Of a stretch of DNA of 64,000 nucleotides, positions 3,265 through 30,316 are shown piece by piece (position 1 is the stretch's first letter; the number at the start of each line of letters is the position of its first letter). The position numbers and the translations under genes were made by a program. The notes beneath the pieces were generated by a model, which had not been told where the DNA came from, did no database searches, and saw nothing but the letters and a program-made list of their open reading frames with translations. Origin of the DNA: Morchella semilibera (taxonomy: Eukaryota; Ascomycota; Pezizomycetes; Pezizales; Morchellaceae); assembly GCA_009192285.1 (NCBI GenBank), contig WBVU01000005.1, forward strand, positions 1,248,768 through 1,312,767, read 5' to 3'.

Positions 3265-3774
3265 CTAACCCCCTCTCCTGGCGGATGCAGAATACTGTTC
3301 GCGTCGCATATATTCCTTCAAAAGCTCCGCCATCTCATTCCTCTTCATGGATCTGGCCCACTTGAGTGGTAGGTATACAGTACCAACCTTGGTGTATGCG
3401 CCGGCCTCTAGGAGTATCCTCATAGGTTCAGTGGTGGTGCAAGAAACGGCTAACAATAGCGGACAATAGCCATCGATATAGGCATTGGGATCAGCGCCAT
3501 TGGCGAGGGCACGTTGAATTAGTGTCTCTCTATTCTCTACGCCCACGGCCCAGAAAAGGACCTTGTTGGCATCCCTCTTCAAGTGGGCGGCAATGAGAGG
3601 GTCTAGTAGCCTGTGCAGAGCTCGACAGGTGGCAGATAGGTTGCAAAGGCTGGAGGTGTGCTTGCAGGATCGTCCTAGGAGGACACGATGCTTTTTGGAT
3701 GCAATTGGTAGATATCTAGCGATGATGAGAACAACCTCCGGTGGTAGAGTAAGTAACGATATCGAGGTGGACAT
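3265..3774 (-). CDS. F-box/ankyrin protein, 169 aa
   Basis: An F-box-type segment spans residues 8-65: it starts LPPEVVLIIARYLP and ends LSATCRALHRLLDPL, matching the recurring pattern LPLELLL-IA-YL ... LSRTCRTLHxLLxPLL seen in its neighbours. This copy has an extra basic insert of about 18 residues between the two halves of the F-box. Residues 76-165 resemble two to three degenerate ankyrin repeats (RALANGADPNAY, MRILLEAGAYT, EMAELLKEYM). The gene is a single exon. F-box proteins usually bind Skp1 and present substrates to an SCF ubiquitin ligase, with ankyrin repeats as the binding surface; that role here is inferred from domains. It is the first of a series of minus-strand paralogues extending to 21.5 kb. 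Confidence 0.8.
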   Translation of the reverse strand: MSTSISLLTLPPEVVLIIARYLPIASKKHRVLLGRSCKHTSSLCNLSATCRALHRLLDPLIAAHLKRDANKVLFWAVGVENRETLIQRALANGADPNAYIDGYCPLLLAVSCTTTEPMRILLEAGAYTKVGTVYLPLKWARSMKRNEMAELLKEYMRREQYSASARRGG

Positions 3775-5276
3775 TACTGAGAAACCTCGTGATGGATAAA
3801 GGGTGGAAATTGTTATTCGACTGAGTGTGTCATGATGGTTGGGTTTTATCTAGATCGTTCCGCGGGAAAGCGCTAATATAAGTGTTGATATTAGATCACG
3901 TGTCACTTCAAGGGTGGGGTGTGCTTCCAACAAGACACCGAGGCGCCTGTGCCCCCAGAGCCGCGTCCCGCCAATTAACCTACGTCCTACCCCTTCTACG
4001 GTTATCTGCCCGCGTGTCGAGTAGTAACATGCCATACTACTATAAGTCGTTGCGATCTTTAACGATGGTCTACACTGTGAATCTAGAAATTAAGATTAGT
4101 GCTATTAGCGAAGGAGTGATCGCTAATGGTTTCCGATTCATTTTTACCGCCGAGAGAAGGACGAGGGCCGCAATATTGGCAGATAGATCGGTAATAAGGA
4201 AAGGCAAAAAGAGGCTGTCTAATCTAACTCGCTTACAACATGGCCTTTTATAGCACTAGATCTCTCTCCTAAACAAACAATTTCAATCATGATACCGGAT
4301 ATCTATTCCATACTCCTCGGTTTTTTTTTTTACTCATAATTTCATTGTTCCCAGGTTACAAGAATGTCGCATACAGGGAAACCCTATGGCGTAAACAAAA
4401 CCTAACCCCGCCAAAAGGAAAAAAAAAAAAGAAGGAAAAAAAAGAAAGTTATGTCGAGGGTCAAGTGTCGCAACCGAACATAGCCGGAGCGGAGCGGAAG
4501 ATAGGATCCACGAAGAGTAGGAAACCTGTGAGAGAGGGTAGACTTTTGGAGGAGCCTGAGGAGAGAGGGTAGGCTTTTAGAGGAGAGAAGAGGGTGCCCA
4601 GGAGGCAGGAGACAGGCAGGGAACAGTGAATCTCATACGTAGAGAGGGGAATTTGATCCGTTGCGCAGTGAGGAGATTGACTATCTTAAAGTCAATGAAG
4701 CCTAAGAAAAGTCTGTGGAGTGGTGTGATCCCCCCCATTCTCAAGTCTTAGCGGAGGAAGAGGGATGTCCATACTCCTCGGTTACCTAAGTCAATCACTA
4801 GAATAGTATGACGGTGTGGCACTAGCAGCTACAGTAGCGTTAGTTCGATACGCGAACAGACTTTCTTTGCAGGATCATAGGGAAGGACAATAGTGTATAT
4901 CACCTATATAGCTAGCATACAGTTGAACCCGTTCGGATTGTGAACAAGATTAGGCCTACTCCATTTAGAGGTTTATCAAACAATCTTCAACCAATGTTTG
5001 CATATACATATATGATGGTCCTTGGACCATAACTTGTCTGGCTGAGGTACCTATCGCTTAGTACAATCGCTCACCTGCTGAAGGCGTGTCCATAGCCTAG
5101 TTCTGCCACTGGCCCCAAAATTTCCCCGACCGCCAGAGGATTCGGCTGCTGTATAGGGTTACACGAACGCGTGGGGCTGTCTTAGCTAGGCGCACTATGA
5201 CTAATCTTATGGTTTTGCTCGCGGTGTATCAACTCTCCTTGTGCAGTATCCTTATCTTTGGAGGCCACCGGATGCC
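3775..5276. other. Intergenic, no convincing gene
   Basis: A T10 run lies at 4321-4330 and A-rich tracts at about 4419-4445. An imperfect direct repeat of about 37 bp around AGAGAGGGTAG lies at 4528-4590. The 10-mer CCATACTCCT occurs twice, at 4308 and 4769, both times followed by CGGTT. Short frames here lack any recognisable domain. Confidence 0.5.
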
Positions 5277-5819
5277 ATGTCTTTGAATCCGTCCAACGAC
5301 CGTATCACCTCACTCCCCCTGGAGCTCTTCCTGCAGATTGTCTCATACTGCCGCCGCTCCCGCACGATGTTCGCCCTCTCCCGCACCTCTCGTACCCTTC
5401 ATGTACTGCTCGCACCCACACTCACCGCTCGGTTCGCTCAACGCGCACCTGAGATCATCCACTGGGCTCTACGTAAGGGTCGTATGGAGTTCTTTGAGCG
5501 AGCACTGGCAGTTGATACAGCGCCCACTACCATCGTCAGCTTAGGCCGCCATGACACAACTTTTGTGGTTACCATGGTTAAAGGTAAATCAATAACGAGT
5601 CGGATCGAGCTTGAACCCAACGCAGATAGTATTCAGCGTTTGAAGGACAAAGGGTTGGTTGTGGAGAAGACGGCCTATGATTTTGTGCTAGGGCTTATGC
5701 CAAAGGAGAGAAGGAGGTTGAGACAGTGTAGGGCCACTTGGAGGGGTTCTGGGGGGAGGGTAGTGCGGGAAGCAAGGCGTCACCGGCCTCGGAATGATCC
5801 CGTTTTTCAAGAAGAGTAG
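5277..5819 (+). CDS. Short-form F-box protein, 180 aa
   Basis: The start is the ATG at 5277; an upstream in-frame GTG is not needed. Residues 10-60 form the F-box: LPLELFLQIVSY, then LSRTSRTLHVLLAPTL. A conserved W/A segment (IIHWALRKGRMEFFERAL) follows, as in the rest of the family. The C-terminus has no ankyrin repeat. Instead it has an alternative tail with LKDKGLVVEKTAYDF, which aligns by eye with LREKGVQVETEYFE in the gene at 29888. The two therefore belong to a separate subfamily. The last 40 residues are Arg-rich and may be an extension from loss of an older stop. A role as an SCF adaptor is inferred. Confidence 0.75.
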   Translation: MSLNPSNDRITSLPLELFLQIVSYCRRSRTMFALSRTSRTLHVLLAPTLTARFAQRAPEIIHWALRKGRMEFFERALAVDTAPTTIVSLGRHDTTFVVTMVKGKSITSRIELEPNADSIQRLKDKGLVVEKTAYDFVLGLMPKERRRLRQCRATWRGSGGRVVREARRHRPRNDPVFQEE

Positions 5820-8712
5820 GGTATGGGGGTCAGCCTGTGGACTCTGAGTAGGATGAAGACTGTACCACAAAGGAATACTATTGAGCGATGATAAGGTCGA
5901 CGCAACAAGTTGATAAGATCGACTAATTTGAAGCACGAATAATGACCATTTCCAAGAAACTCGGGGCGTTGTTGTGTTTCCTTAGTAGACGCATTTTATT
6001 TAAGACAGGCAATTAGACCAGTCAAGGTTTTTCACGACAACCCATTGAGCGTTTGTACAGATGAATGTAAAAGAGATTCCCCCCCTCCATGTGATGCGTT
6101 CTTGACAGTGACATGTCCCCTCCCCTGTCCTGTAGTCATGACAACCGTTGATTTGAAGCCCTTATCATATGATAGCCCTACACCGTTTTTTGAGGGCTTC
6201 GCTCGTTCTAGAAACTCTGATCTTCCACCCTGGCATCATGATATTAGGCTAATATTTGTATCTATCGTTTAAGTATATAGTATGCATAATTGGCAATATA
6301 GGATTTAATCCACCCCTTAGTTCTGTACCGGAAAGACGAACTTTCCATCTACAACAGATGCTCATTTCTCTTATTAAGCTTTGAGGCGCTTCGGCACATA
6401 TTTCCATACCACAGCCACCTCTTATGCTGCAATAGGTTTAATCTACTCCAGCATATCTAATGAAGTAGATTGTCTCACCGCCCCCACTGTTGTTTCCACC
6501 TTGTCATTTGTATTAGTTGTGCACTTGAGTACTTTAATCCCATGCATGTCGTTTTGTATGATTGCTTATGTTGCCTCCCTTCAACATTGGGGTAATCAAT
6601 CTTATAAGTGTTCGCCTTAGCCCTCTGATCTCTTAATAGGTGGTTTGGCTACACTTGTACTCTTACAATAACCCTCAAATCACAAATCTATTTCTAGTAC
6701 TATTGAGCAGGGTCTACTTCGAAGCTTCACTTCCAAGTTCCAACTTTGCGAAAATTACTCGAATTTTGTTGACTCGTATTTTGATGTTTTCCTTGTAAGA
6801 ACCCACTACACATATCATAAGGCCTTATTTGCAGTTATTCTATTTCTCTCGATATATTTGATGTGCGTCTCTATCTCTATTGGCTAAATGAGAGACATTA
6901 TCCTTTCCCTCTCCTGTCAAAGCTTTTCAGCAGTCTACTATCCTCTTCCAGCCTATACTAGTAAGTTGCAAGAGGTTTGGATTTAAAATTTAATTTCTTT
7001 TTAATCCCCAGAAACGTTGTAGGACTCGTATTTGTTTTGTAATAGTAATGCAGGTCCTTTATTAAATGTCAATTGGTTTTGTTTTGCTAAGTTCAGTTTC
7101 ATTGCCTAGTGTCTCATGATAATCCCGCTTACGGATTATCACCTTCAGTGGGGGGTTGGAGACGGAGTCTGAGCTGTGATGTGAGGATATCATTGACCCA
7201 AATGTTTGTGAGCAAGGGAGGAAACCGAATCTCACGCTGGGTAGCACAATCTTATTAATTCGAAGACAATCCAGATCCTTAATGAGAAGTCCGTTCATCG
7301 GAATATATTCTGAAGAAACAACCTCCCATGGAATTAGCTTTCTATATGCAACTATTCTGAGGATCTCTCGAATTGTAAAAAGATTAGCTGATTTACGGGT
7401 AGGGGATGCGGGTATACACCCGACATATGACTTGGAAAGGATTATGCTCCATCTTTCAGGTATCATGATATTAACTCTTTTACCCGATGTTGAAAGTACA
7501 CCTATAGTAGGGCTTGCTACCAGTCAACATTCCTCTCTTTCCACGAGTAGGCCCTCCATCTACTTTCAGGATGCGCTCGGGAATAAAGCCCTTAATCGTG
7601 GGATCCGTTGATAGGAGACCAAACATTAGTTACCTAAGGAAACGATCAAGCGCCTTTGACAATAGCATATAACACAATTAGCTTAAGGGAAAAAAAGTGT
7701 CCAGGTACTTAGATTTAGGGAGGATAACACTGTTGAATTGGCCAATAGACTACATAGCGGTACACAATACTGCTGGGCGCAGAGGGCATTTAATATGACA
7801 AATGTCTCTTTGGAAGTCACCATCTCTACGTGATCTTAACAAGCCACAAAGGAACCCTGCGCAAAAATGATGCTTTCTCGCGGCGGGTAGGAGGGACCCG
7901 AATATGCGAGTGCTGGGATGCAATTGCTATTTAAAGAAAAGATGACAATACATGAATGCAATGTAGCCCCATTTTTGTGTACTTCTTATCTGTCGCGAGT
8001 AGGTTCGGAGTTCAGCATTACCATCAGCAGTTGACTTAATTCGGGACGCGACATATTCCCCAAACTCTCCACCGAAGAATCATCATACATAGTAAACATA
8101 TCCGGGGAATTCCGGCCAAATTGAGATAACGAGTTAAATCAAACACAGAGATAAAAGGGCAGTTACCAGAAGGATAGGTATTACCAAATGCGCAACGAGA
8201 GATATATATATCAAGCTCCTGATAGCAGGCTGAGCGGAGCAGTGATGCTAAGCAATCTCCCAGGTCCTAACTAGGGCGTCCATTCTACCGCCCAAATTAG
8301 CCCACCTAGACCCAACTTCATGACCTCACATATGGTATAGAGGTTAGACAGAAATCGTCGGACACCCCAAAGCACACTAAAACTAGCTCCCAACTATTTT
8401 CACAAAGCTATGTAACCTTCGCAACTGCGGGGTACGCTATGGGTGTAACCATGTTCCAAAATATACTTTTATTCTTCGAGCATTGCGGGAGTTTTAAAGC
8501 CTCGAAGGTTGAACTCCAAGATTTTTAAATTTGAGCGTACCTTACCAAGACCCATACGAATTTCAGGTCCATTCCCCAGATCACCCAAACAAAATGCTCA
8601 TCATTAGTTCACAGATAATTCTCTTTAAATCTAAAGCTTTCAGATGATATTTATAGTATTTAATTAATCTGCATAACATAAATTGTTGTACCCTATATCT
8701 CGAAGTGGTGTG
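5820..8712. other. 2.9-kb AT-rich stretch, no recognisable gene
   Basis: Only short frames are present. Two overlapping antisense frames at 7062-7466 and 7282-7611 are the longest (134 and 109 codons), but neither has a motif I recognise. I see no TIR, LTR or F-box motif. It may be an old degraded transposon, but nothing in the sequence proves this. Confidence 0.4.
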
Positions 8713-9273
8713 CTATGGAGCAATCCGGAAAAGGTTGACATTGGCGTTCTTTGCTTTGGTGTCTGTCCATCTCACCGTATTGTACACCATGAGCCCCCTA
8801 TTTCCGGCGTCGGGGTGTTCCTTGCCTGTCTGCATCACTACGAACTTGAAATGCAACCTAGTGCCATCCTTCCAAGCTAGCTTCGGGTCCGCCCCATGCG
8901 CAAGAAGGATCCTCACAATCTCAGCATGGCCTACCCAGACGGCATCGGCAAGCAATGTAGCAGCCCGAGAGGAGTTGAGCATTAACCTTGTGGGATCAGA
9001 ACCTTCGCCGCCCTCGGAACCTGGAACGCAGTAAATGAGGGCGCGCGCGAGTATGTCGGGCCGGTTGTGATAGGCGGCCCAACGGGCAACAGGGGAGGCA
9101 TGTCTGCTGAGGATTGTGTGGAGGAGAGGAGATAGGAGGACATGTAGGGTACGACAGGTACGGGAGAGACCGGAGAGTCCCCGGAGGGCTAGGCGGGGTC
9201 GGAAGGGGCTTTCGGTGTAGAGATGGCCGCCGATTTCGAGAATTAGCTCGGGGGGGAGGTGGAGGAGTGCCAT
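8713..9273 (-). CDS. F-box/ankyrin protein, 186 aa
   Basis: Residues 4-55 are the F-box (LPPELILEIGGHLY, an insert, then LSRTCRTLHVLLSPLL). The W-A segment (VARWAAYHNRPDILARAL) follows at about 64-82. One clear ankyrin repeat lies at about 104-137 (ADAVWVGHAEIVRILLAHGADP). The last 50 residues do not look like ankyrin and may be replaced sequence. Single exon with an ATG start directly before the F-box, as in the paralogues. Probable substrate adaptor of a ubiquitin ligase, by domain inference. Confidence 0.8.
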   Translation of the reverse strand: MALLHLPPELILEIGGHLYTESPFRPRLALRGLSGLSRTCRTLHVLLSPLLHTILSRHASPVARWAAYHNRPDILARALIYCVPGSEGGEGSDPTRLMLNSSRAATLLADAVWVGHAEIVRILLAHGADPKLAWKDGTRLHFKFVVMQTGKEHPDAGNRGLMVYNTVRWTDTKAKNANVNLFRIAP

Positions 9274-9480: not shown

Positions 9481-10678
9481 CCCATCGCTATAGCACCCGA
9501 GCAGCGTCGGTGACTGTGCCTAGGATTTTCTGTGGTACAATAAAACACACAGATGTGACCGCCTTATATGATATGGGTATCTAAGACACTTTTTTTTCAT
9601 ATTTTTGACCATATTATAAAAGACCCAAATGAAACGTCCGAGTGAGGTGCCATGATGCTACAAGCGGGGGTTTGTATTTTATAACACCATTACTATAGAG
9701 TACTTGTAGCTGATATTATATTTCAAGACCCTATCTCAATGACAGGGTGGCTACTGGGTGCTCTGCTCACCCCTCAGCACGACTATTGAAAAGCATTCAC
9801 CATTACTCGACACCAGAGGCCTAGTTTCACTACCATAAGGTTCCTCACGCCATCCCGCGGCCAGTGGCCCCAAATCACAAGTAGTAAGTTCAACCCACGA
9901 TAACACTGCTACGAAAATTGATACAAAACTGAAATTAGGTACATATTCAGGAAGACTTCGGGCGTGCAAAATCCTGACTTCCCGCATGCTCAAAAGGCTA
10001 ATAGACCGATCCCCGAACCGCCTATTTCGTGAAGATGAAAGAAGTACCTTTAATAGTTGCAGCCACTCGTTTCTTCGGGAAGCCACATTTGCCTTGGCAT
10101 TACCTACATGTGATTTCTACTTCCTCTTTCCCAACCAGGAAAGTGACATGCCGAAGCGTCCATATCATATCAATGAGCTCAATGCCCACCGCATTACTCG
10201 ATGGGATGTCTTACCACCCGTTTTCTGGGCCCACCACTTCGGTCATGACGACCTTCGCTATCACAGTGTTCCACATAGAGCTGGTTGACGAGCATCCCAG
10301 GCCTGGAAAGCCCTGGGTAGTATCTAGTAGTGTTGTTGGGGATGGGATATAAGGTAATGCCTACGGGGTAGCGACTAATAGTGGGTGGGAGCATTGCGAC
10401 CAGCTAGGCCTAGTGGTCCAAATCTTGATGCCGGTGGATTCCCCGGTGATGGAGGCATGCGGGGGAAATATTGTGATTTTTGAACGGATGATAGAAGTAA
10501 GGGAAGGTTGAGAATTGTGGGCTTTGTTGCGGGGGCAGGGTAGGTGCTGGGAGATTCGGGGGACGGCGGTGGTGAGAGAGAGATTGTCATTCAAGATAGA
10601 GTAGTATGGCGCGGGAAGGCTTGCAATTGAGGTACCGGGGCGTGAGGTTAATTGGAATAGTTAAGCCTGCATGCAGAC
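9481..10678. other. Intergenic, no convincing gene
   Basis: Several overlapping frames of 70-110 codons occur on both strands between 9751 and 10600, but none carries a recognised motif and they overlap each other. I see no inverted repeat of note. Confidence 0.4.
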
Positions 10679-11188
10679 TTATGTTATGTAATTCGCGAGT
10701 AGGACCTCTACCTGGACATGCACAAACCTCGCCACCAGCTCTATCTGAACCTCATCCACCGCATTCTTCAGCGGGCTATCGTGCCAGCCCTGATTCGGAT
10801 GCACGAAGTGCGCAAGGAGGATCTTGGCGACCTTTGTCCGGCCGTGTAGGACCTCCTCGACGAGGATCTGAGCGAACGCATGAATCGTGATCTCGTTGTT
10901 GGCCTTATGGACGGTGTCCTCGTAGGCTATGGGGCAGTGGGGAAGGGCGCGGGAGAGCGCGTGCGGGCGATTTTTCGTGGCGGCCCAGAGGACAATGTGG
11001 GCGGCCTCGGTCGTGAGAATGGTGTCTAGGAATGGGGAGATGAGGTTGTGGAAGGTACGGCAGGTACGGGAGAGGCATGAAAGGCCGATGAGGGCGTCGC
11101 TGGGGTAGAAGGGATAGAAAGGGGCAGGGATCTCGATGTGCGAGATTATGATGAGGATCAGCTCAAGGGGGAGGTTCATGAGAGACAT
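10679..11188 (-). CDS. F-box/ankyrin-like protein, 169 aa
   Basis: The F-box covers residues 5-55 (LPLELILIIISHIEI ... LSRTCRTFHNLISPFL), with an insert like that of the neighbour at 8713 (both have PFxPxxAL before LSxLSRTCRT). The W-A segment IVLWAATKNRPHALSRAL follows. The C-terminal half has one degenerate ankyrin-like unit (VLHGRTKVAKILLAHFVHPNQ) and a hydrophobic end. It is closest by eye to the gene at 8713, suggesting a local duplication. Single exon. Function inferred from the domain only. Confidence 0.75.
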   Translation of the reverse strand: MSLMNLPLELILIIISHIEIPAPFYPFYPSDALIGLSCLSRTCRTFHNLISPFLDTILTTEAAHIVLWAATKNRPHALSRALPHCPIAYEDTVHKANNEITIHAFAQILVEEVLHGRTKVAKILLAHFVHPNQGWHDSPLKNAVDEVQIELVARFVHVQVEVLLANYIT

Positions 11189-11840: not shown

Positions 11841-12353
11841 TTAAGCACCAAAGCTTAGCAACAGCGCCTCGATCTCCTTGTCGCCCCTGACCCGCGCAAT
11901 CAACGTTGCTCTCTCCCTAACAGGCTTGAAGGTACGTCGAACTATGTCTGTCTCCTCAACGAGCGCCCTTGCGGCTTTGACATCCCCACCGCGTACGGCT
12001 CTTAAGAGCGACGTTGAGGCAATGACTCCCCCTTCGCCGGCACCCGCACCATCTTCCAAAGCCACGCATGTAGTTTCATGGTACCCCGGGAGGGCGAGTT
12101 GGTGCAGGATCATATCGGGGAGGAGAGCGCCGAGATCAAAACAGCGCCGCATATGACCAGCCTGGTTGGATAGTGTTGCCCAAAGCGACATGTTTTCGGC
12201 ATTTAGTACAAATAGCTTATCTAGTGGCGAAGCAAGGAGGTGGTGGAGGAAGTGGCAGGTACGGGAGAGCTTTGAGAGGGCGGGGCCTGCGAGGTGCTGT
12301 GCGATTGATAGGAGGAGCTCGGCGGGCAGGGTCAGGAGTTTGAAGGACGGCAT
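11841..12353 (-). CDS. F-box/ankyrin protein, 170 aa
   Basis: I place the start at the ATG at 12353, seven residues before the F-box, as in the paralogues; the frame is open further up to an ATG at 12443. F-box at residues 7-50 (LPAELLLSIAQHLAG, LSRTCHFLHHLLASPL). The W-A segment is NMSLWATLSNQAGHMRR. A Gly/Ala-rich linker precedes an ankyrin repeat (TSLLRAVRGGDVKAARALVEE) and a partial one (IARVRGDKEIEALLLSFG) at the C-terminus. Single exon. Likely an SCF substrate adaptor by domain inference. Confidence 0.78.
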   Translation of the reverse strand: MPSFKLLTLPAELLLSIAQHLAGPALSKLSRTCHFLHHLLASPLDKLFVLNAENMSLWATLSNQAGHMRRCFDLGALLPDMILHQLALPGYHETTCVALEDGAGAGEGGVIASTSLLRAVRGGDVKAARALVEETDIVRRTFKPVRERATLIARVRGDKEIEALLLSFGA

Positions 12354-12629: not shown

Positions 12630-13151
12630 ACCATGGGGTAAAACCCGGGAATACAAGTTTTGGTGTAGCGTATCCCTGGAATACCGCGGTCTAGCTACAC
12701 TACATCATAAACACTTACTCCTCACCCATCCATATCATTTGTGTGGGTAGTATTGTGAGTTGGAAGGATTATTTATACCTATATTATAAGATCTTCCTGA
12801 GCTCGTTAACTCTTCTGATCCACACTGGTTCTTGACACTCCCGTGCACCTAATAGTCGGCTTGATTAGTTCGAAAGAGTATAACATGCACTGTAGGTGAA
12901 GCTATTAAGGTACATACTCCTTTGAACATTTGGGCACTGGACATGTAAAGGTTTAAATATACATGCATTATTTGTTCGTAATGATAACTGCAATACCTGT
13001 GGTTATTTAATTAAATAGCAGCTAAATCAGACTCGGCTACTAGCGAACATCGTCGCTAACTAGCAATAAAGTACATTCCCCCTGTGCCCCGCTAGTCCCA
13101 CCGCCATGATTAACTCTGTATCCCAGCACCTCGTCTCCACGCGCGCACCTG
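12630..13151. other. Intergenic, nothing recognised
   Basis: AT-rich, no frame above 60 codons with a motif and no evident repeat. Confidence 0.4.
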
Positions 13152-13504
13152 TCAGGAGGAGCATACGAGCAATACCAATCCTATTGTGTCCCACAGCCCC
13201 AAAGAGAGCGGTGAGGCGATCTTTGGCATGATACCGTACTCAAGGAGCACGCGGACTACCTCTGTGGAACCATCCTTGGCTAACCAGGTGGTGAGTCCGA
13301 GATCTGGAAGAGGGGTACCAAGTTCCAGGCAGCGCTCGACAGGGATATGTCTTCGAGGATAGCCCACTCAAGGATGTCAGGCGCTTCGGGCTCAAACCCC
13401 TCGTCAAGTACTGGGTAGGGCAGGTGGTGGGGAGATCGGCAGGTACGGGAGAAGACAGAGACGCTGGGGGTGGGGAGATGATGGGCGATGAGGACCAAAA
13501 TCAT
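13152..13504 (-). pseudogene. F-box/ankyrin pseudogene with frameshift
   Basis: The first part (13504 down to about 13360) reads an F-box remnant, LIAHHLPTPSVSVFSRTCRS, but the usual LPLELL start is degraded to LPMILV. The W-A segment (ILEWAILED) is followed by a shift into a second frame. That frame continues the family pattern (ERCLELGTPLP, then an ankyrin-like GSTEVVRVLLEYG) down to 13152. The frame change near 13360 and the worn F-box mark it as non-functional, unless the shift is a sequencing error. Confidence 0.65.
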
Positions 13505-14519
13505 GGGAAGGGCGGGGCCGGAGGGACTGGGGGTGTTGCTGGTATAAAATAATAGTGGGGGGGCTTGTGTAACGGGCGATACTCCTAGGGTACTTCAAAA
13601 ACATGAAATCACGAGCAGAATAGTAAATCTACTTGATTGGTCGTTTGAAACTTTTTTCACTTAAATCGTTACATGAATGAAATGAATGTCTAGCGGTTTG
13701 GTTTGATCGTCCTGATTTCCTGTTTCTACCTCACCGGCTTTGACCCGAGAGCAAGGGGAGGATCTAGACCAGTGATGCTTACTCTCGACCCCGGTTGTAG
13801 GCGCGGAGGATGTTTGGTGGATATACAATAGACTTCCGAGCGAACCCAGCCTCCTATGACGATCGATAACCTCTGATGCTATCCACTAACTACTGCTCGT
13901 GCAATTGTGTAAGAGCGGTGTCAGATCTTACTATCTCCCAACGAAAAATCCTCATTTAACCAAATTTAAGCTACAGCAAGATTTCGAATCCATAGAATGC
14001 CCACTATACCAGCCCGGCGGTCCGTCGGAAAATATATTATCCACTTATCTGCTCTTCCGCCTCCCATATTCTTCCCGAAGTACCGATCGGACGGAACTGT
14101 TCTTCACACATCCACCTCCTCCGAGCGAGCGCCCGTCAACACCATACATTCAAGCATGACCGCAACACTACAAAGAATAGCTCCTCTGTCGAACAACCCC
14201 CTGTACATTTACTCTAAAGAGCCAAAGCTGATTAACAGCACTTATCTTACTACCCATGGCGCACGCTTCACATTTTCGGGGCTTCACCCGGCCCCCTATG
14301 TCCACCTCTACTCCCGACCCTGCCAAAAATTGCTTTCCGGTATCGAGTGGCCTATGAAGTGTTGTAGTTCCGGGGGGTTCCAGGTAACTGGCAGTAGGAC
14401 TATATATAGTCTACCTAAGTTTAAGTCCGCACCGCTAGTTTGTAGGCGGTTCAGAATGCGTCCTAATCAAGGACTGATGAGGGCCATAAAAGGGCAAAGT
14501 AGAGATCTAACTTAGGGGC
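13505..14519. other. Intergenic; one uncertain open frame 13997-14515 (+)
   Basis: An ATG-started frame of 172 codons at 13997-14515 on the plus strand has no motif I know and sits antisense between two F-box relics, so it may be chance. Nothing else stands out. Confidence 0.3.
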
Positions 14520-14863: not shown

Positions 14864-15190
14864 TCAGCATCCAACCATTGCTAGGGTGTCTGTACTCACC
14901 GGCTGTATCGATGGCGCTGTTCTCGGCAGACTATAGGTAGTGCCGCTAGGATGATCAACAAGGCCTTGGTGGAGTAGTATATGGGTGATGTCGGTGCGGC
15001 TGTAGAGACGCGCTGAATGGAGCATGCTGCAAAGATCGATGTCGGGGCATATGGATAGCGCGCGGAAGTGGATGGTGGGCTCGCTTCGTCGTGCGGCATT
15101 CAGGGCAAGCATGTGGGCATGAGTGATAAAGAGATCGAGGAGGGGGGTAGGGTGAGTGGGTTGTGTAGATCTCGGTAGGTAGTAAGCGGG
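14864..15190 (-). pseudogene. F-box/ankyrin pseudogene, 5' part degraded
   Basis: Reading minus strand, PTPLLDLFITHAHMLALNAAR matches the end of the F-box and the following segment in the genes at 17398 and 18167. FRALSICPDIDL matches their RALSFCP region, and DITHILLHQGLVDHP matches their DTVRLLLQHRVVDP ankyrin unit. The usual LPLELLL and SRTCH sequence is lost (RSTQPTHPT instead) and the frame ends early at 14864. It is a dead relative of the pair downstream. Confidence 0.6.
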
Positions 15191-16261
15191 CGGAGAGAGT
15201 TTGGAGTGGGAGGTGTAAGCTAATCCCTAGAGAACAAAGGGGAGGAGCGCGAGTATGGGGGGGGGGGGTGGCGGAGGTTTAGCGTAGACCCTTGCGATCC
15301 GGGTTTTGGGCTGTTGCGACTTTGCGTAACAGAGGAGATGCGGGGTTCGTGGGAGTACGCGACTACATACACACAAAAACCGCCAAGACTACTCCGTATG
15401 GCATGTAATGGAACTTAGAAACTCTATGAAATTGCGAGTATAGACCTACATGCATAGTAGCTAATTTTGATGGTACGAGTACATATAATAATCTCCTCCA
15501 AAGGCTCCCCGGGCGCTCCCCTTGCTAGTTCACCCACTTTAACTCTTCCACTACCAGGTCCCGTAGATATATTCCCCCCGCATAGGTCATACACGCCTGC
15601 GTTCATGATCTTGCGACCGCGAGATTCCCCCGATCGACAGCATTCCAGATTGGGGCAGGTCCGTATTCCATGACAGGGTTGATGGCGCGATCCTATAGCA
15701 AGATGCGTAAGATTTCGATAGCGGGTAAAGTGTATGTTACAAGGGTATAAGTAGTTAATGGAGAACGGCGGGAGAGGGCAAACAGGGCATAGGTGGGGGA
15801 TATGTTATGCGATGAGCTGGAAGAGCTCAAGGAATCGATGTGGCCATGCAAGCCCGGACGGCCGATCTGCATCAGTTTGTGAAGTATGAAACATTGAAAT
15901 GATTAGCCTGGACGTTGATGAGTAATCTTGAATCGGTCGCTTGTCAGTGATCTCCTGGTGGAGCTTTGACCTTTGTGTATTTAGCTATGTAGCTTCCGAT
16001 GATATTACCTATCTCCGGTACTATTTCAAGTTTCTTTCGACCTTGCTCGATGTGTCTGAGAGTTGCTGCGAGCTCTTTGCAAACAATGGGTTCAAGGGGG
16101 TTATAACCAATTATATAAACTATCCTACAAGCTATTCTACACCCACTACCGCCTCCCCACAACCCACGAATACACCACACACACACCCAGCGCCAACCCC
16201 ACCCCCTCCCGCCTCCATCCCCCCACCAACCCACCACCCCACCACCCCACCACCACAATCG
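15191..16261. other. Intergenic, C-rich near the end
   Basis: No gene is recognised. A G-run lies at about 15259-15267 and a CCACCCCA-type simple repeat at about 16180-16258. The long frames over the latter on both strands (Pro/Thr-rich or Gly/Trp-rich) come from the repeat. Confidence 0.4.
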
Positions 16262-17397: not shown

Positions 17398-17979
17398 TTA
17401 TTCCAGTATCGACAGTCCGGTGACTGAAGCTTTTTGCCTACCAAATTTCTCCAAGAGGCGTACCATCTCCCCCTTCCCCGCGCCCCTTTGCAGCCGTCTT
17501 GCAACTTCCACAGGGTGCGGGCATCCCAGCGCCACACTCGCGCCCGCGTCCAGCAGCAACCTGACAACCTCCATGTTCTCCGAATAGACCGCTGCCAGCA
17601 GCGGAGTCGGCTCAGACTGTTTCTCCCACTGCCCCTTTCTGTAAGAGTTTGGATCCACAACGCGATGCTGTAGCAGTAGGCGGACGGTGTCGGTAAAGCC
17701 CCACGTGATCAGATCCGTCAGCAGTCCCAGATCATGGATGAAGAAGCCGGGGGGGCAGAACGAGAGGGCTCGCTGCAGGAGACTAGGGTGTGGCCGGCGC
17801 CGTAGGTACAGGCACACGATGGAGGGGGCGCGGGCGGCAAGGTGGATGTTGAGCTGCGGGGTTAGGATATGGTGGAGGATATGGCATGTGCGGGAGAAGG
17901 CTAATAGGGCCTGGATACCGAGCTGTTTGGCGATGAGGTAGAGGAGCTCGAGCGGGAGGTCCGGAATTAAGGTGGGCAT
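17398..17979 (-). CDS. F-box/ankyrin protein, 193 aa
   Basis: F-box at residues 8-52 (LPLELLYLIAKQLGI, then FSRTCHILHHILTPQL). A Y/W-type segment (IVCLYLRRRPHPSLLQRAL) follows. Two ankyrin repeats are clear: LITWGFTDTVRLLLQHRVVDPN at about 105-126 and TPLLAAVYSENMEVVRLLLDAGASV at about 138-162. A partial third follows (VARRLQRGAGKGEMVRLLEKFG). It is the upstream-most of a tandem pair with 18167-18775, sharing the same domain order and phrases such as LLLDAGASV. Single exon. Expected to bind Skp1 and a target protein; this is inferred from domains. Confidence 0.85.
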   Translation of the reverse strand: MPTLIPDLPLELLYLIAKQLGIQALLAFSRTCHILHHILTPQLNIHLAARAPSIVCLYLRRRPHPSLLQRALSFCPPGFFIHDLGLLTDLITWGFTDTVRLLLQHRVVDPNSYRKGQWEKQSEPTPLLAAVYSENMEVVRLLLDAGASVALGCPHPVEVARRLQRGAGKGEMVRLLEKFGRQKASVTGLSILE

Positions 17980-18166: not shown

Positions 18167-18775
18167 TCAAGATGTACGTGCTAATTCTCTATCTATTAAA
18201 AAATTGATACCAAATTCATCATTCTGGTCCCCCAAGCTCTCAAGCCATTTATTCCCCGGCCTTGCATTCTTCAGCAGCCCCATCATCTCCCCGTCATGCC
18301 GCCTCTCCAACCGCCACACCACCTCCGCGGGCGCCGGATTACCCAATCCCACACTTGCCCCCGCGTCGAGCAGTAGTTTTATCACCTCCAGGTTCCGCGC
18401 ATACACGGCTGTCAGCAGCGGCCTGACCCTGCCCGGACAGCCACCGCCTTCAGGGTCAACCATACGATTTCGAAGAAGTACTCGGACGATCTCGATGTCT
18501 CCTGCTGAGATGAGGCGGCTGAGGAGACCGTCCTGGTGCGACTTGGAAATAACGTATCTGCGGGGGAGGTGGGGGAGGGCGAGCTGGAGAAGGTCGAGGC
18601 GGTGGTTGCGTGCAGCCCAGGGGACGACGGTGGCGGCGAGGTTGGGGACGTGGGAGTGGAGAAGGGGGGTGAGGAGGTGGTGGAGAGAGTGGCAGCTCCG
18701 GGAGAGGGCGAGGAGGGGGAGAATGTCAAGGTAGTCAGCTATGAGGAGGAGGAGTTCGAGTGGGAGAGTGGGCAT
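18167..18775 (-). CDS. F-box/ankyrin protein, 202 aa
   Basis: F-box at residues 4-47 (LPLELLLLIADYLDI, LALSRSCHSLHHLLTPLL). The W-A segment is VVPWAARNHRLDLLQLAL. Ankyrin units are LISAGDIEIVRVLLRNRMVDP at about 88-108 and LLTAVYARNLEVIKLLLDAGAS at about 121-142, then a degenerate one. The C-terminal 40 residues are unlike the paralogue at 17398 and look like added sequence. The pair is in the same orientation, about 190 bp apart, so tandem duplication is likely. Single exon, ATG three residues before the F-box. Confidence 0.85.
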   Translation of the reverse strand: MPTLPLELLLLIADYLDILPLLALSRSCHSLHHLLTPLLHSHVPNLAATVVPWAARNHRLDLLQLALPHLPRRYVISKSHQDGLLSRLISAGDIEIVRVLLRNRMVDPEGGGCPGRVRPLLTAVYARNLEVIKLLLDAGASVGLGNPAPAEVVWRLERRHDGEMMGLLKNARPGNKWLESLGDQNDEFGINFLIDRELARTS

Positions 18776-19278: not shown

Positions 19279-19866
19279 TTAGAGATTCCCCACTAGATGG
19301 GACCATTGTTCTAATCCCCTTTTCCCCTGGTTGTAGATGAAATAACTTGATACCCTCTCAACAACCCTACCATCCCCCCCCGCCCCCCCAAGACTCAATG
19401 CCAATGCCAGCGGATTATTTGGCCCTTCCGGCCAGTCAACCCTAGCTCCCCGGTCTAAAAGCACCCTTAAAACCCCAGTACGGCTTTCCTTAACCGCTAT
19501 CGCTAGAGGCGTCAACCCGCTTTCACCCATAGTGTTCGGAGTGGCACCCCGGTCCTCCAGTAGAAGGTCGGGTAGTGACTCGCTGCCTTGTTCAGAGGCT
19601 TGTGGTACCAAGGAGGAGGCCGTTTGGGGATGGCGGCGGGCTCGGGGTTGCAGACGTAGCCATTGGTATGGGGCCGCACGTCGGAAGAAGCGGTCGACGA
19701 GGACGGGAGTGAGGGGATCGTGGAAACCGTGGTTGGTGCGGGGGAGGCGGAGAGCTCTCCCGCGGGGAGGTGGGGGTCGATTTTGTGCAGGGGTTCGGTG
19801 GGGAGGGTGGGAAAAATGTTGGGCGTCGTTGGTTAGAGAGATGAGGGCTGTTGTTTCCTGAGGCAA
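19279..19866 (-). pseudogene. Ankyrin-repeat member with eroded F-box, likely pseudogene
   Basis: The C-terminal half keeps a good ankyrin repeat (LTPLAIAVKESRTGVLRVLLDRGARVDW) preceded by LLLEDRGATPN. The N-terminal half only hints at the family: LRLPRTNHGFHDPLTPVLVD stands where LSRTCRTLHDLLTPLLD is expected, and the leucine-rich LPLELLL start is absent from this frame. The frame itself is open over 195 codons. A small indel in the first 40 codons would explain the lost F-box. It could still encode a shortened ankyrin protein. Confidence 0.5.
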
Positions 19867-20892
19867 AGTGCGGGGGTGCTGCGCTGTGGCGGTGTTGTGT
19901 AGCGTAGCTAGTGATTAGCGATTGGCGCTTGTCCGAAAGGGTAATCGGTTGATTGATATTGTCGGGTCACAGAATAACTACACACCCGTTAAATTAAGTT
20001 TTTCATATTACAAGTAAAAATAACAATTCTATAGCTCACTAGCATTATGGGAATAGAACAATCTTTTCCATATCTATTGGATACGTTGTTGAAATATACC
20101 ACCCCGTGGAGTCGGAGCTGTGGTTAGGTGCGCAGCTATTTTTGTAACCCGACAATGCTTCATACGTATACATGAGCATCATGTCACGAAGAAGGCGCAT
20201 TATACTTACATTTGACTTACCCTGACCTCTTAGTAGGTTTTATGTAAAACATAGTTCTAGTTTAGGAGAGGATAAGTATGACCATCAGGGGCCAAAAAGA
20301 GAAAGGCCCCTAAGGTGACCAGTAATCCCTCCATAATGTAAATCAGCTGGTGAAAACAATGCATACACAGTTCATTTCCTTATAGAACCCCCCGGCGGCC
20401 GAGACAACCCGGCCATCAACTCACGGGAGTGGATAACTAAGTATCTGCGATACCTGTTGTCAAAAATAGGATGCGCCAGGATCCAACAAACTAACCCAGC
20501 TCCACCACTAATGAACCCAATGCAAGACACTCATGCATCCGGAATCCCTAGTATCTCGTTATTACCATCTACTTTATTTTGTCTATATTGGTTGTGTACG
20601 TGATGTTTGTTGCGTTGAAGGTTTTTTTTGACATCTCGCAACATGAGCATATACATACAAGTGCAGTGCGGCCTCCGGCCGCCCGCTCTCGTCAGTAAAT
20701 GAGATACCCATTCCGACTTTGATATCTATTTGTTTGTCCACATAGATTTTATTTTAGCTAAAGAAAGCTAGGAGAGGAGTAACTATTACAACGAGGAAGC
20801 TTATACTATTTAGAAGATATCCACCTATGAATGTATAGTTGTAATTGACGCACCCTGATCCTCAATCTTACGAACTACCTCAATCTTGCGAA
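19867..20892. other. 1-kb intergenic, nothing recognised
   Basis: No gene-like frame. An 18-bp tandem duplication (CAATCTTxCGAACTACC) lies at about 20862-20898 and overlaps the stop of the next gene. Confidence 0.4.
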
Positions 20893-21522
20893 CTACCCGG
20901 CATAGTGAAGCCACTCTGCAAGTCTCTTCTCTTCAATCTCACAATACCTAATACCTCCCCACCTACTCAATAGCGCCACCATCATCCCCGCATTCTGACC
21001 TGGGCAGTAGTCCAGCGCCGCATCCATTGGCGTTAGCGGACTCCTCCAGTAACAATTAGACACCCCGTTCACATCTGCCCCCGCCTCTAGCAGCATCCGA
21101 GTAATCTCGACATGCCCGCCCGCAACACATTTGACCAATGGCGCGGCACGCGGATGTATAAACAGGCCCCTCCCCTCCTCCCATGGACGTTGTGAGTTGG
21201 CTGCATGCGCCAAGAAAATGCGCACGACATCGGTGAGTCCTTTCACCACGGCATAGGTGAAGACATCGTAGGAGCGGGGACCGGGAGAAGGGATGGGGAT
21301 GCCGAGCGCGAGGGCGCGGGAGAGAATGTAGGGGCGGTTTTGGTAGACGGACTGTACGAGGATGCGATCGGCGTCCTTGGAGAAAATTCGGTTGAGGAGG
21401 GGGTTGAGGAGGGTGTTGAAGGTGGAACAGCTGAGGGCGAGGTTTGCAAGCGAGCGAGGAGGTAGGTACTCAGAAACCTCGAGGAGGAGCTCGCGCGGAA
21501 GTGCTAGCAGGTTGTGAGACAT
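20893..21522 (-). CDS. F-box/ankyrin protein, 209 aa
   Basis: I place the start at the ATG at 21522, because the F-box (LPRELLLEVSEYLPPRSL, LALSCSTFNTLLNPLL) follows at residue 7 as in the paralogues. The frame also opens upstream to an ATG at 21702, with a hydrophobic stretch that is probably untranslated. Ankyrin repeats: VVKGLTDVVRIFLAHAAN at about 92-109, APLVKCVAGGHVEITRMLLEA at about 130-150 ending GADVNG, and a third with LTPMDAALDYCPGQNAGM. This is the best preserved ankyrin block of the cluster. Function as SCF adaptor is inferred. Confidence 0.83.
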   Translation of the reverse strand: MSHNLLALPRELLLEVSEYLPPRSLANLALSCSTFNTLLNPLLNRIFSKDADRILVQSVYQNRPYILSRALALGIPIPSPGPRSYDVFTYAVVKGLTDVVRIFLAHAANSQRPWEEGRGLFIHPRAAPLVKCVAGGHVEITRMLLEAGADVNGVSNCYWRSPLTPMDAALDYCPGQNAGMMVALLSRWGGIRYCEIEEKRLAEWLHYAG

Positions 21523-21886
21523 GGTAGGCAGGTGGTGGGGTATAAGGTCGTGTATGGGAGAATTGATGAGATGTTCGGGATTAATAATCGCTTTATCCTC
21601 GCGAATCCGAAGTGATGCAACGGCGACAAAAACCACAAATTTCGTAGCTACTGGCCACCATGTCCACAAGATGGGAAGTAATTCATATATGTAGGATTGC
21701 ATTAGGCGGAGCTATATAATAAATAGTAAATGGAAATACAAATGGAAAAAATTGACTGGGTCTAGCTTTGGTGGTGGTCGCGACACTAGAATATCGAGCC
21801 TGTTGCACAACTTTAAGGACCCCCGCGGCCGGGTACATACTTGTAAGTACAGCGGAGCCCGAAAATAATATGCTCTTATCGGGTTT

Positions 21887-22418
21887 ATGCTATGGCGTTG
21901 CGCGCCTTAAAGGTGACATAAATTACAGTGCGAATGACTTTTCAACCAGACGAGGTATCAAAGTTCTATGAAGCCAACGTCTTAAGTATACTAATACTTA
22001 CAAATCGGCCTCATAGATTTTTGATATCTTCTCTGGTTGAAAAGTTATTAGCAATACCATTTAACTATTTTTGTATGTAAAAAGCGCCAAGACCTGTGAT
22101 GTAGAACGTACAGTATTGGATTGTCAGTATATAAAATGCTGACCCCCCAGGAAAATGTAAAAGTTGCTAACAGATCTTGTTATCTCCTCCATCAAAAAAC
22201 CGAGCCTGCATACAAATTCCGACCCTCTATTATAGGGGTCAGCATTGACAGCTTAAGGGATACCGAGCATTTATACACCTTCATTACAGAGTGGTGGCTA
22301 AGATATGATTTCCAGTCGTAAAGTGACTGGATTGTAATTCATTGTTCAAGAGCATTCGGAGTAGCCAAGGTTGTTCCAGCTGACTTACTTGTACCTTTGA
22401 GGGGCACCGTACCATATA
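21887..22418 (-). mobile_element. MITE A, family of 43228-43609, with a second MITE inside
   Basis: The ends are inverted copies (CGCGCCTTAAAGGTGACAT on the left; GTACCTTTGAGGGGCACC on the right). The body matches the element at 43228-43609 in reverse: AAAGCGCCAAGACCTG, ATAGATTTTTGATATC, CTACTCCGAATGC and CAGCTGGAACAA all recur. About 150 bp between the two matching halves is extra and holds the ATGCTGACCCC-type MITE at 22122-22250. Without the insertion the length is near that of the full copy (about 380 bp). Confidence 0.8.
22122..22250. mobile_element. Small MITE nested in MITE A, copy of 12497-12629
   Basis: Ends TGTCAGTATATAAAATGCTG and GGGGTCAGCATTGACA are inverted. The interior agrees with the copy at 12497. 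The flanking MITE A sequence is continuous on both sides when compared with 43228-43609, so this element inserted later. Confidence 0.8.
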
Positions 22419-24887: not shown

Positions 24888-24913
24888 GGTAGACAGGTCG
24901 CCACATGCAGCCT

Positions 24914-25158: not shown

Positions 25159-25353
25159 ATAACGCCAAGTCAGCCGGTGTAGGGGTATGGTTTCTAAGAA
25201 TGATGGGAGAGCCGGGTAATTACGGGCAGGGTGGTTATATATAAATGGTAGATCTATCACACGCGCAGCCGTGTTCTAACATGTACACTAAAACCCCTAT
25301 TTCACCATCTGATACCACCCACCAATCACGTCCTACAACGCCAAACAAAAACC

Positions 25354-25773
25354 ATGGCAGTTAGGCTTCCCTTGGAGCTCCTTCTCCACATAGCTGGCTA
25401 CCTCCCCACAGCTTCGCTCTCTATGCTTTCTCGCACCTCCCGCACCCTCCACGATCTCCTAACCTCCCTCCTCGACATCCGCTTCGCCGCCGAGGCCAGG
25501 CCAATTTTCATGTGGGCTCTAAGGCACAAGGAATACGCCATCCTCTGTCGGGCTCTAGACCTCGGCACTCTCAGCCCCTCAATCCTACCCTATAAGCACA
25601 AGTATGTTTATGTAAGCCTACCTGTACGTACCGGCGCCTTGCCGGGGGAGTTGGGCCGTGTGCTTGTGAGAGATCCCGAGATTATCGAGATCCTGATGGA
25701 CGCATGGAGAGATGGAGATGGTGAGCTAGTTATCCTTCCTAGCCATTTCCAAGGCTCGGGGGACGATTGGTAG
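25354..25773 (+). CDS. Short-form F-box protein, 139 aa
   Basis: F-box at residues 5-45 (LPLELLLHIAGYLPTASL, LSRTSRTLHDLLTSLL). The W-A segment is PIFMWALRHKEYAILCRAL. The rest (LGTLSPSILPYKHKYVYVSL and a charged end) has no ankyrin repeat. It resembles the tails of the genes at 5277 and 29888 in length and in the pattern AL-LG-L-x-x-IL. Single exon; ATG in a good context (AAACCATGGC). About 200 bp upstream is the three-MITE array, which therefore lies in its promoter region. Function inferred from the F-box only. Confidence 0.78.
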   Translation: MAVRLPLELLLHIAGYLPTASLSMLSRTSRTLHDLLTSLLDIRFAAEARPIFMWALRHKEYAILCRALDLGTLSPSILPYKHKYVYVSLPVRTGALPGELGRVLVRDPEIIEILMDAWRDGDGELVILPSHFQGSGDDW

Positions 25774-26839: not shown

Positions 26840-26976
26840 AGACCAGCTTGCCCATCAACGAGCACGGCCCATCAGCGAGCGTTGCCTGCTATTTTTCCCG
26901 TCGCAACGGATGCTACCCGCCAGATTTTGGGTGTACGCTCGTTGAGGGGCCGCGCTATCTGGTGGGCAAGCTGGTC
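26840..26976. mobile_element. MITE of about 137 bp
   Basis: AGACCAGCTTGCCCATCA on the left and TGGTGGGCAAGCTGGTCT on the right are inverted copies. Inside them, CGGCCCATCAGCGAGCG and CGCTCGTTGAGGGGCCG continue the symmetry, giving arms of about 40 bp with mismatches. No coding capacity. It ends where a possible exon begins. Confidence 0.75.
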
Positions 26977-27307: not shown

Positions 27308-29887
27308 GTGGGAGCCGTTTCGAGGCAACCGGAGGCTTGGGAGTTGAGGGACGAGCCCAGGGCGACGGACTGGCGGTGGAGGCAAGTGGACTCCGATACG
27401 GAGTAGGCGTCGGGGGAGAAGGCTGAGAGTAGCTTGAGACCGGATAGTTGATGGAGATAGTGGAGGAAGTAGCGCCACACGCGAAATACTCGACCTCACG
27501 CGTGGTTATTGGGGCCTATTTTGACTCATGGATCTCAGATTGGGTGGAAATGTTCATAAAAGGTTAGGTCAAGACCGTTTGAAAGCAGAGCGGGTACCCA
27601 TCGACATGTCAATGCTGCTCTCTCTATAGTAGGGGGGTACTAGTTTTAGAGCTACCTGATAAGGGATTGGTTTGTGGGAGTAAGCCGCACTCCTGGGGTG
27701 GGTTTGGGTGTGAGATACATAACTAGTCCAAACATATCCGCGCCGCCTGGAACTTGGCGCTGACTAAATGTACGGCATATCGTGCTTTAGTGCCAGAGGT
27801 CACGCCATGCAGATGGAATCATAGCCCTGGCCCTGACCTATTCTACCTGCCCCTAAGACAGATCTCAGGGCTTCGCTCGTTCTGGAAATATTCAACCCTG
27901 TGGTGTATGGTGTATACGCGTGGTCATGGGTATCACTCGTGTCTTGCCAAGCAACACGTGTATTCCACGTAACCCTGCGTTCATCTCCTAACAATGTACT
28001 CGCTATCCACCATAAGAACCTGAAGATGCAGGTACATAAGGCAGGGATAATTTCTGTGGGGGAACGGCTCTACTACATATAAATGATCCTTGTAACTGTT
28101 ACTGGCATATTCAGGTTATGGTGGGAACGAGCAGCATCAGACCAAGATTCCTGCCATGTGACCTTTAACTCCCTTACATGACGACAAATAACCCCACCCT
28201 AAATAAATGAAAGACATTGCTGGTGTGTCGAATCATGTGATAGGTGATGTCAGTTATAGCGTTAGTCTAGGTAACCTATAAGTTGAGTTCCCCTTCATCT
28301 ACTAAAACCGGTTATCATACCTTCACTGGCATACCTTCGTTGCGATAGGCAGCCCTTAATACATTATCCTCCTCTCACGAGATATCCTCTAGGAAGCCAT
28401 GGGAGGCAACCTGTGTGATAAAGGCACGACCCATTATATTGTACCTCCTTTTCCCCGGTATTTAATTTTATCTCCAGACTTAACATCTACAGCATGTTCT
28501 TCAAGAGGTATCCTACCGGCCAATCTCACTTCTGCGGTGGTGCTCAGGCGGTACCGAACTCAACATTGGAAGTGACAAGATGACAAGTCATTGTTTGGAT
28601 TGATTGATAACTCATACACGCAACCCAACATTTACTAGGTAGTTGTTAGCCACCCGCGGGCGGCCACCACCAAAGCTAGCTAATAATAACAAGGTAGTTT
28701 CCTTACGCTACACCAGAGAGAGCGGTTTAGCTAGAGTCTGTAGATCGGACGTGACTTGAGAACGTTTATGAGCTAGTCTACACGTCATCCTTTTACTCTA
28801 GAGCTTGGGAAGAAGCCTCCCTTTGATCTCGCAGGCCACACTAAAGTTGGAGCAATGGGCCTTGGTTAGAATCATTGATAGGAGCTGTACACACCCTACT
28901 GCCCACCAGGCCCTATAGTATGGAGGCACCATTGAACTGATACTCTGCTAATCTCTCCATCTATGAAAGCCAAGATATGCTTCCTTCCAAGAACGACATA
29001 CACAGCCCGGAGGCGCGTCACCATCTATCACTCGTTATACCGATCACGTACCCTTAACTTGATACTTCGGGAGGTACATCTCTAACGAGAACCACTACAT
29101 GGGAAGATACACCAGAATCATGTATGGGTGGGGTGGTAGGGGTGGGTGGTATGGGAGAAGTGATTACGGTATTGTGTTGTGTTTCCTGGTAGTGGCGGTG
29201 GTGAGAGTGGAGTCTATCCTGCATCACTGGCGAGTAGGGCACGGTTGAGGTGGTGTGGTAGGAGATATATCTTGGGGCTAGTCGTTGTAAGATCAGAAAT
29301 ATCTCTTGGTCTTCTGGAAATAGGTAATAGAAGAGCGGTTGTTTTATGGATTGCTAATTGAGTACATGTAGCCTTGCGTAATAACCCAATCATATCCTTT
29401 AAATCACACATTGCATCCCGGTATATCTATATACCTATCAGATAGTGGAAACATGCTATCCCCTGGGCGGATGAAATCGTCAAATCCGCGGCTAAGCAAG
29501 CGGCTAACAGCTGTTTTGATTGGCTCTATGGTTATCAACCCTTAAGAGCAACGAATATACCCAGCTCGGTGCGTGCACGGTCCCGGGCGCGCATAACTTA
29601 ACGTGCTCATCCATCCAAGGGATACAAGGCTAGATCTGACAGGGAGCGGTTGGTACTAATACCGCAAGATCTCAATTTATACGCACGGTTGCCAAGAGGC
29701 CAGTGCATGTGTGTTGCACGCAACTCTACGTTGTGCTAAGGTAAGCACAACCTACCACCATACAGAGGCTAGTACCGCTCCTCAGCCATCGCACGTCACC
29801 ACACAGCATCACATGTTATGACTACAAAAATCGTCACCACTAGGCTGTAATCAGATACAACACTCGCCGTATATCAGCATCTTGTGA
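27308..29887. other. 2.6-kb intergenic, nothing recognised
   Basis: No domain-bearing frame. G-rich runs lie at about 29126-29155. No repeat pair was found by eye. Confidence 0.4.
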
Positions 29888-30316
29888 ATGATGTCTGTCC
29901 TTGTGCCCACAAACACTGCACTTCCACTCGAGCTCTTCTTACAAATAGCTAAATTCCTCCCTACCCGAGAACTCTCTTATCTCTCCCGCTCCAACCGCAC
30001 CCTTCATGTGCTCCTTGCACCCCTCTTAGCCTCCGCCTTCGCCAATGATGCGCCGTGTATCATGTGCTGGGCTGCAAAGTACTCTCGGAACAGTATCATC
30101 GATCGCGCACTAGCGCTCGGCAGCCTGAAGGCCACAATCCTTACAGGATATGGGCACCGGAATACGTTATTCTGTAGAGATCCTACCGCAGTTTGCGATT
30201 TCTGGATGGTATGGGTGGATGATGTGTCCTTAAGCTATCTACGTGAGAAGGGAGTGCAGGTGGAGACAGAGTATTTTGAGAGGGGAGGCATATATCGAAA
30301 ACGTGTAGGCCGCTAG
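29888..30316 (+). CDS. Short-form F-box protein, 142 aa
   Basis: F-box at residues 12-55 (LPLELFLQIAKFLPTRELSY, LSRSNRTLHVLLAPLL). The W-A segment is CIMCWAAKYSRNSIIDRAL. The C-terminus lacks ankyrin repeats but has YLREKGVQVETEYFERGG, aligning with LKDKGLVVEKTAYDF of the gene at 5277. Together with 25354 these three plus-strand genes form a short subfamily. Single exon; two adjacent ATGs at the start. Role as ubiquitin-ligase adaptor is inferred from the F-box. Confidence 0.78.
   Translation: MMSVLVPTNTALPLELFLQIAKFLPTRELSYLSRSNRTLHVLLAPLLASAFANDAPCIMCWAAKYSRNSIIDRALALGSLKATILTGYGHRNTLFCRDPTAVCDFWMVWVDDVSLSYLREKGVQVETEYFERGGIYRKRVGR

Follow-up and report, generated by a model that had tools for sequence, protein, structure and literature searches.

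The window analyzed here is a stretch of 64,000 nucleotides of the Morchella semilibera genome (contig WBVU01000005.1, termed C21, positions C21:1248768-1312767, in an assembly of 56.76 Mb and 23 contigs). Two exons of the ribosomal protein uL3 of this genome have their best matches in PDB chains 7r81, 8oo0 and 7olc, from Neurospora crassa and Chaetomium thermophilum, which probably places the organism among the Pezizomycotina. Between positions 3265 and 30316 it carries ten intact open reading frames (ORFs) of an F-box/ankyrin family together with decayed copies of the same family. This region is the right end, the right-hand third, of a larger array of 25 intact F-box/ankyrin ORFs spanning 82.6 kb (C21:1196450-1279080), with 10 members in the window and 15 further left.

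Members of the family and their domain order

The ten window ORFs form a single family in alignment (mean column identity 31%), and the L, P and E residues of the LP.E motif are invariant throughout. A Pfam F-box model is matched by all ten at E <= 0.02, by seven at E < 0.001 and by five above a gathering score, and Pfam ankyrin models are matched by five at E < 0.001. An earlier note, made from the letters of this DNA, had described ten intact-looking genes of one F-box family with LPLELLL-type F-boxes, which is borne out by these matches; it had also proposed a profile search and named a lack of F-box matches in most members as a refuting result, an outcome that did not occur. Its count of fourteen loci, four of them decayed, holds for the ten intact ORFs and for three decayed copies, the fourth (10145-10270) being a weak candidate. 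The features are listed in window coordinates, with profile E-values for decayed copies taken, except where the ten-ORF profile is named, from a profile built solely on the 25 intact ORFs of the array (intact-only profile). The ORF at 20893 is counted from the ATG closest to the F-box, its longest ATG frame being 20893-21702.

3265..3774, minus strand: intact F-box and ankyrin ORF, 169 amino acids (Pfam F-box-like 9.1e-6, Ank_2 2.1e-8)
5277..5819, plus strand: intact F-box ORF, 180 amino acids, no Pfam ankyrin match (F-box-like 5.1e-4, under gathering score; aligned in the family)
8713..9273, minus strand: intact F-box and ankyrin ORF, 186 amino acids (Ank_5 3.2e-5; F-box-like 0.02, under gathering score)
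10145..10270, minus strand: weak candidate for a fragment of a decayed copy (tblastn E 5e-4 over 42 amino acids to the 10679 ORF; absent from the profile matches)
10679..11188, minus strand: intact F-box ORF, 169 amino acids (F-box-like 0.0067, under gathering score; 42% identity to the adjoining 8713 ORF over 115 amino acids)
11841..12353, minus strand: intact F-box ORF, 170 amino acids, diverged C terminus (F-box-like 2.3e-4, under gathering score)
13063..13594, minus strand: decayed copy over three frames (intact-only profile E 1.6e-13, 9.5e-6 and 3e-4; tblastn in frames -1, -2 and -3, best 8e-16)
14867..15226, minus strand: decayed copy, ankyrin part only (intact-only profile E 5e-6; ten-ORF profile 0.0048; no tblastn match)
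17398..17979, minus strand: intact F-box and ankyrin ORF, 193 amino acids (Ank 4e-8, F-box 3.5e-4; sister of the 18167 ORF, support 99/96)
18167..18775, minus strand: intact F-box and ankyrin ORF, 202 amino acids (Ank_2 3.8e-6 from residue 53, the W of the W-A segment; F-box 4.2e-4)
19282..19914, minus strand: decayed or highly diverged copy, open frame (intact-only profile E 1.1e-13; Pfam Ank_2 1.6e-4; tblastn 2e-6)
20893..21522, minus strand: intact F-box and ankyrin ORF, 209 amino acids (F-box-like 1.5e-7, Ank_2 2.9e-8; structure model with a mean predicted local distance difference test score, pLDDT, of 78)
25354..25773, plus strand: intact F-box ORF, 139 amino acids, short C terminus (F-box-like 2.1e-7)
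29888..30316, plus strand: intact F-box ORF, 142 amino acids, short C terminus (F-box-like 0.011, under gathering score)

The decayed copy at 13063 has lost the E of the LP.E motif, and in the 19282 copy the LP.E half of the F-box is unrecognizable and the ankyrin part is retained. When the profile is made from the ten window ORFs, these two are also recovered in their best frames (3.7e-12 and 6.1e-6, respectively) in addition to the 14867 copy listed above. The reversed region, used as a control, gives no tblastn match and a best intact-only profile match of E 3.4. An iterative profile returned E-values for the decayed copies that were set aside as too good, the profile having absorbed the decayed copies themselves and a long ankyrin protein. 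The ORFs at 13970 (plus strand) and 16556 (minus strand) have no Pfam match at E 0.1.

The earlier note had described a W-A segment that follows the F-box. WA is present in eight of the ten window ORFs; the segment proves to be no separate motif and instead forms the first, degenerate ankyrin repeat, placed immediately after the F-box. Pfam Ank_2 matches start inside the segment at residue 73 of the 3265 ORF and, on the W itself, at residue 53 of the 18167 ORF and residue 59 of a left-hand member (L020:5531-6118), and the VIA alignment starts at residue 49. Among the 60 of 335 matches listed from a family profile search, a few start at the W-A segment (profile positions 51, 56 and 61) and most start at positions 86-99. 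The structure model of the 20893 ORF has three predicted helices at residues 10-17, 22-31 and 33-49 (block pLDDT 88-92), followed at the W-A segment by a helix pair at residues 51-60 and 64-72.

Extent of the array and quality of the assembly

A genome search with three window members, followed by family profiles over 164 kb, traces the array to C21:1196450, approximately 52 kb left of the window. The first and last window members lie where the earlier note placed them, but 3265 is not the start of the family. The F-box of the 15 left-hand ORFs is matched in Pfam at E <= 0.05 in 14 and at E < 0.001 in 12, and ankyrin models reach E < 0.001 in 10, which gives 15 of 25 for ankyrin across the whole array. 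The sole left-hand ORF without any Pfam match sits in a low-quality patch of sequence. At its left end, the array has three adjoining genes (L017:7707-8543, L017:9160-9927 and L018:3046-3795) that carry twice a segment resembling the second half of the F-box (LSRTC..L-like) and make a clade of their own (support 100/99). About 22 kb left of the array, an 849-amino acid open frame (C21:1171874-1174420, plus strand, in L015) has many matches to the ankyrin part of the family.

Beyond the window, further decayed pieces are located near 1204.0, 1221.8, 1227.8, 1230.3, 1237.0, 1237.7 and 1240.5 kb of C21. The intact-only profile recovers all seven, each with a best frame at or below 1.3e-3, and tblastn recovers six of them, bringing the array to about 10 decayed ORFs besides the 25 intact ones; some of these outside pieces may instead be genes that contain an unseen intron or suffer from read errors.

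Clustering is also apparent with PF12937, a model built independently of these genes. It has at least 90 non-redundant matches in the genome (a lower bound, with 150 of 234 candidates scored and 24 of 114 rows removed as contig duplicates), and 17 of the 90 are on C21. The array contains 8 of the 90 compared with 0.15 expected (Poisson P = 4.5e-12), and the span 3265-30316 contains 3 compared with 0.05 expected (P = 1.7e-5), both calculated with an effective genome of 51 Mb, which is an estimate. Elsewhere, any 82.6-kb stretch beginning at a match holds at most 2.

A second contig, C22, repeats the region without a mismatch and with 6 gap bases over 40 kb. Over 140 kb, C21 and C22 show 126 difference events, of which 120 fall in C21:1210074-1217335, mostly as insertions or deletions (indels) of one or two bases, and 6 in C21:1287619-1288705. 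C22 is therefore read as assembly redundancy with poorly read patches and not as a second strain. Family matches at C21 1214-1217 kb without C22 partners looked allelic, and a heteroallelic patch was considered there; the indel pattern favors a low-quality patch. Three of the 25 array genes lie in this patch and their sequences are unsure. This patch does not reach into the window, and C21 and C22 agree over the span 3265-30316. Paired contigs repeat the same matches at nearly the same positions for C21/C22 (L009-L032), C9/C10 and C12/C13, and beyond about 1.52 Mb C21 and C22 seem to carry different matches.

Relationships, age and selection

The nearest relative of an array member is its neighbor in 9 of 25 cases compared with 2.0 in shuffled orders (P = 0.001), an excess over chance indicating that duplication was local. 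In a tree of 36 proteins (25 from the array and 11 from elsewhere) the tips measure 1.31 changes per column in the median; good support is limited to 8 of the 33 inner branches, and the bootstrap had not converged. The members do not scatter among other families, the outcome against which the earlier note had proposed building a tree, although some branch with family copies from other contigs or from other parts of C21.

The copies are genuine, but a recent origin is not supported. The closest pair in the array shares 52% identity over core columns, and at the DNA level members resemble each other at best by about 69-72% over 111-215 bp in a DNA self-comparison. Among the ten pairs with at least 40% amino acid identity the difference at fourfold-degenerate sites is 0.581, and it is 0.582-0.643 in five less similar bins (all 300 pairs of the 25 members); being about equally different in close and distant pairs, these sites place synonymous change at a plateau. 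At 0.58-0.64 the plateau falls short of the 0.707 that base composition predicts, a shortfall tentatively put down to codon bias within conserved residues. No near-identical duplicates with unsaturated synonymous sites occur among the 25 intact members. The proposal of recent local birth and death in the earlier note is thus upheld for local duplication, by the 9 of 25 adjacent relatives, and for loss, by the decayed copies, and is not supported in its recency.

Divergence is uneven along the protein, with a mean pairwise identity within the array of 48.7% for the F-box, 26.1% for the W-A segment and 25.6% for the later ankyrin part. NG86 (Nei-Gojobori) estimates for nine chosen pairs give nonsynonymous distances (dN) of 0.49-0.77 and synonymous distances (dS) of 1.0-1.9, which alone would suggest ratios of about 0.3-0.7. 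Codon maximum likelihood for six pairs gives dS from 1.8 to unbounded and a dN/dS ratio (omega) below 1 in 18 of 18 fits (three regions per pair), most with saturated dS. The dN/dS test that the earlier note had proposed is defeated by synonymous saturation, and because the fourfold sites are saturated these ratios are used neither for nor against positive selection.

Repeat-induced point mutation (RIP) was considered as an engine of the divergence and rejected, none of 41 windows of 4 kb showing a RIP-like run (TpA/ApT and (CpA+TpG)/(ApC+GpT), at the usual thresholds). No shared promoter word is apparent, the top upstream 8-mer occurring in 4 of 25 members compared with a control mean of maxima of 3.8 and a largest value of 5. 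Short dispersed intergenic repeats, about 75-83% identical, are located in or beside the array (window 21891-22416 and 43223-43606; C21:1238897-1239272) and are possible sites for unequal exchange.

Function and evolution of the array

The array is best explained, with a probability of roughly 0.78, as an old, chromosome-focused tandem array of substrate adaptors for SCF (Skp1-Cullin-F-box) ubiquitin ligases, in which the F-box is conserved and the ankyrin surfaces diverge fast. The N-terminal F-box of each short protein is predicted to dock on Skp1, for which the genome has one match (C7:438085), and the ankyrin run directly behind it, beginning with the W-A repeat, would hold the target for ubiquitination. 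The array would have grown by local duplication on one chromosome and lost some members to decay, selection presumably holding the F-box while the ankyrin surface diverges. Since the F-box was held as the ankyrin surface changed, the copies most likely recognize different targets; Skp1 binding and ubiquitin-ligase activity are likewise inferred, the domain order being that of an SCF adaptor.

Several observations weigh against this explanation. Five of the ten window ORFs fall under the F-box gathering scores, five have no Pfam ankyrin match below 0.001, and two are short (139 and 142 amino acids). Across the array, 10 of 25 do not reach the ankyrin threshold. The model of the 142-amino acid 29888 ORF is confident only across the F-box and first repeat, with mostly low confidence beyond. 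A Foldseek search with the short-member model returned 8 matches, none at E <= 0.001 or below E 1; SKP1 complexes appear among them only at E above 1, and PDB 5k35, an F-box/ankyrin effector solved with Skp1, is matched at a non-significant E of 1.6. F-box proteins are not among the matches listed in two homology searches (50 in one and 60 of 335 in the other), an absence that carries no evidential weight. F-box proteins can also work outside SCF complexes (PMC7991009).

The rival that survives best, and one that retains an appreciable though minor share of the probability, is genomic drift, in which copies multiply and vanish with little consequence and most are redundant or relaxed. Drift is the reading that the title of a study on plant F-box genes gives (PMC3030570), and the decayed copies and the short or degenerate C termini of some members would be expected from it; the persistence of open frames and of a conserved F-box at near-saturating synonymous distance argues against it.

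A nursery in recent expansion, driven by an arms race or by self/non-self selection, with positively selected ankyrin parts and strains differing in gene content, is unlikely. It would account for a dense array that includes decayed copies and for an ankyrin part much less conserved than the F-box, and the fourfold differences below 0.707 leave room for a remnant of synonymous signal or for codon bias. It is opposed by the lack of any recent duplicate in the 25 intact members and by omega below 1 in every pairwise fit, though most dS values are saturated. Equally doubtful is a standing repertoire of F-box/ankyrin receptors under balancing or frequency-dependent selection, in which strains would carry different subsets and long-lived divergent alleles and which would serve hyphal recognition, defense against foreign nucleic acid or proteins, or the resistance parts of selfish elements. 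A family this deep and without recent copies would fit such old balanced diversity better than a recent race. A chance or artefactual cluster, made of unrelated ORFs with an LP.E motif or by assembly error, is refuted, despite the redundancy of C21 and C22 and the indel-rich patch, by the reversed-sequence control, the Poisson statistics of the array and the agreement of the contigs across the finding.

The adaptor array belongs to a known kind, the tandem F-box arrays of nematodes and plants, here with an ankyrin target part. The plant F-box superfamily likewise contains tandem arrays, in larger families and with other target-binding domains. Poxvirus proteins and the effector of PDB 5k35 also join ankyrin repeats to a Skp1-using F-box, which in the poxvirus proteins is C-terminal and here N-terminal, and they are likened to the Morchella proteins without a sequence link. 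Gene numbers in the plant superfamily are large and uneven, and drift is put forward (PMC3030570, PMC7829749). Caenorhabditis F-box genes are many, largely tandem-duplicated and focused on particular chromosomes; dN/dS is below 1 in every paralogue comparison except one, and diversified selection is reported from sliding windows (PMC8665587). The tandem, chromosome-focused expansion is shared with Morchella, whereas the ankyrin target part, the fungal host and the lack of recent duplicates set Morchella apart. Macrophomina phaseolina and Magnaporthe oryzae are reported with one ankyrin F-box protein each, with the same two domains in one protein, compared with 25 intact ORFs in 82.6 kb here, and no F-box cluster is reported in M. 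phaseolina (PMC7991009). F-box and ankyrin proteins are listed among the paralogous expansions in Trichoderma (PMC3218866), and both kinds have rows in a table of genes that a nematode-trapping fungus expresses during infection (PMC3828140). A literature search found no paper titled for a fungal F-box/ankyrin array, though a printed account may still exist.

The locus is a clear example, in a fungus, of an F-box/ankyrin array concentrated on one chromosome, and its 25 natural variants of a small adaptor could be used to study how ubiquitination targets are chosen by an ankyrin surface. Differences between strains across the array would make it a candidate locus for recognition; on present evidence it is an old gene family.

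Elsewhere in the window, runs of a short ACACAA-rich unit adjoin the left end of the region (1970-2320), where a self-match is seen. Two long ORFs of 561 and 536 amino acids (33656-35341, minus strand, and 59404-61014, plus strand) have no Pfam match at E 0.1, and a plasmid search with the 620-amino acid frame at 33659 gave no match. Pieces of a Ty3-type retrotransposon, comprising gag with a zinc knuckle, integrase and a Tf2-type SH3 domain, lie at 45018-49706 on the minus strand.

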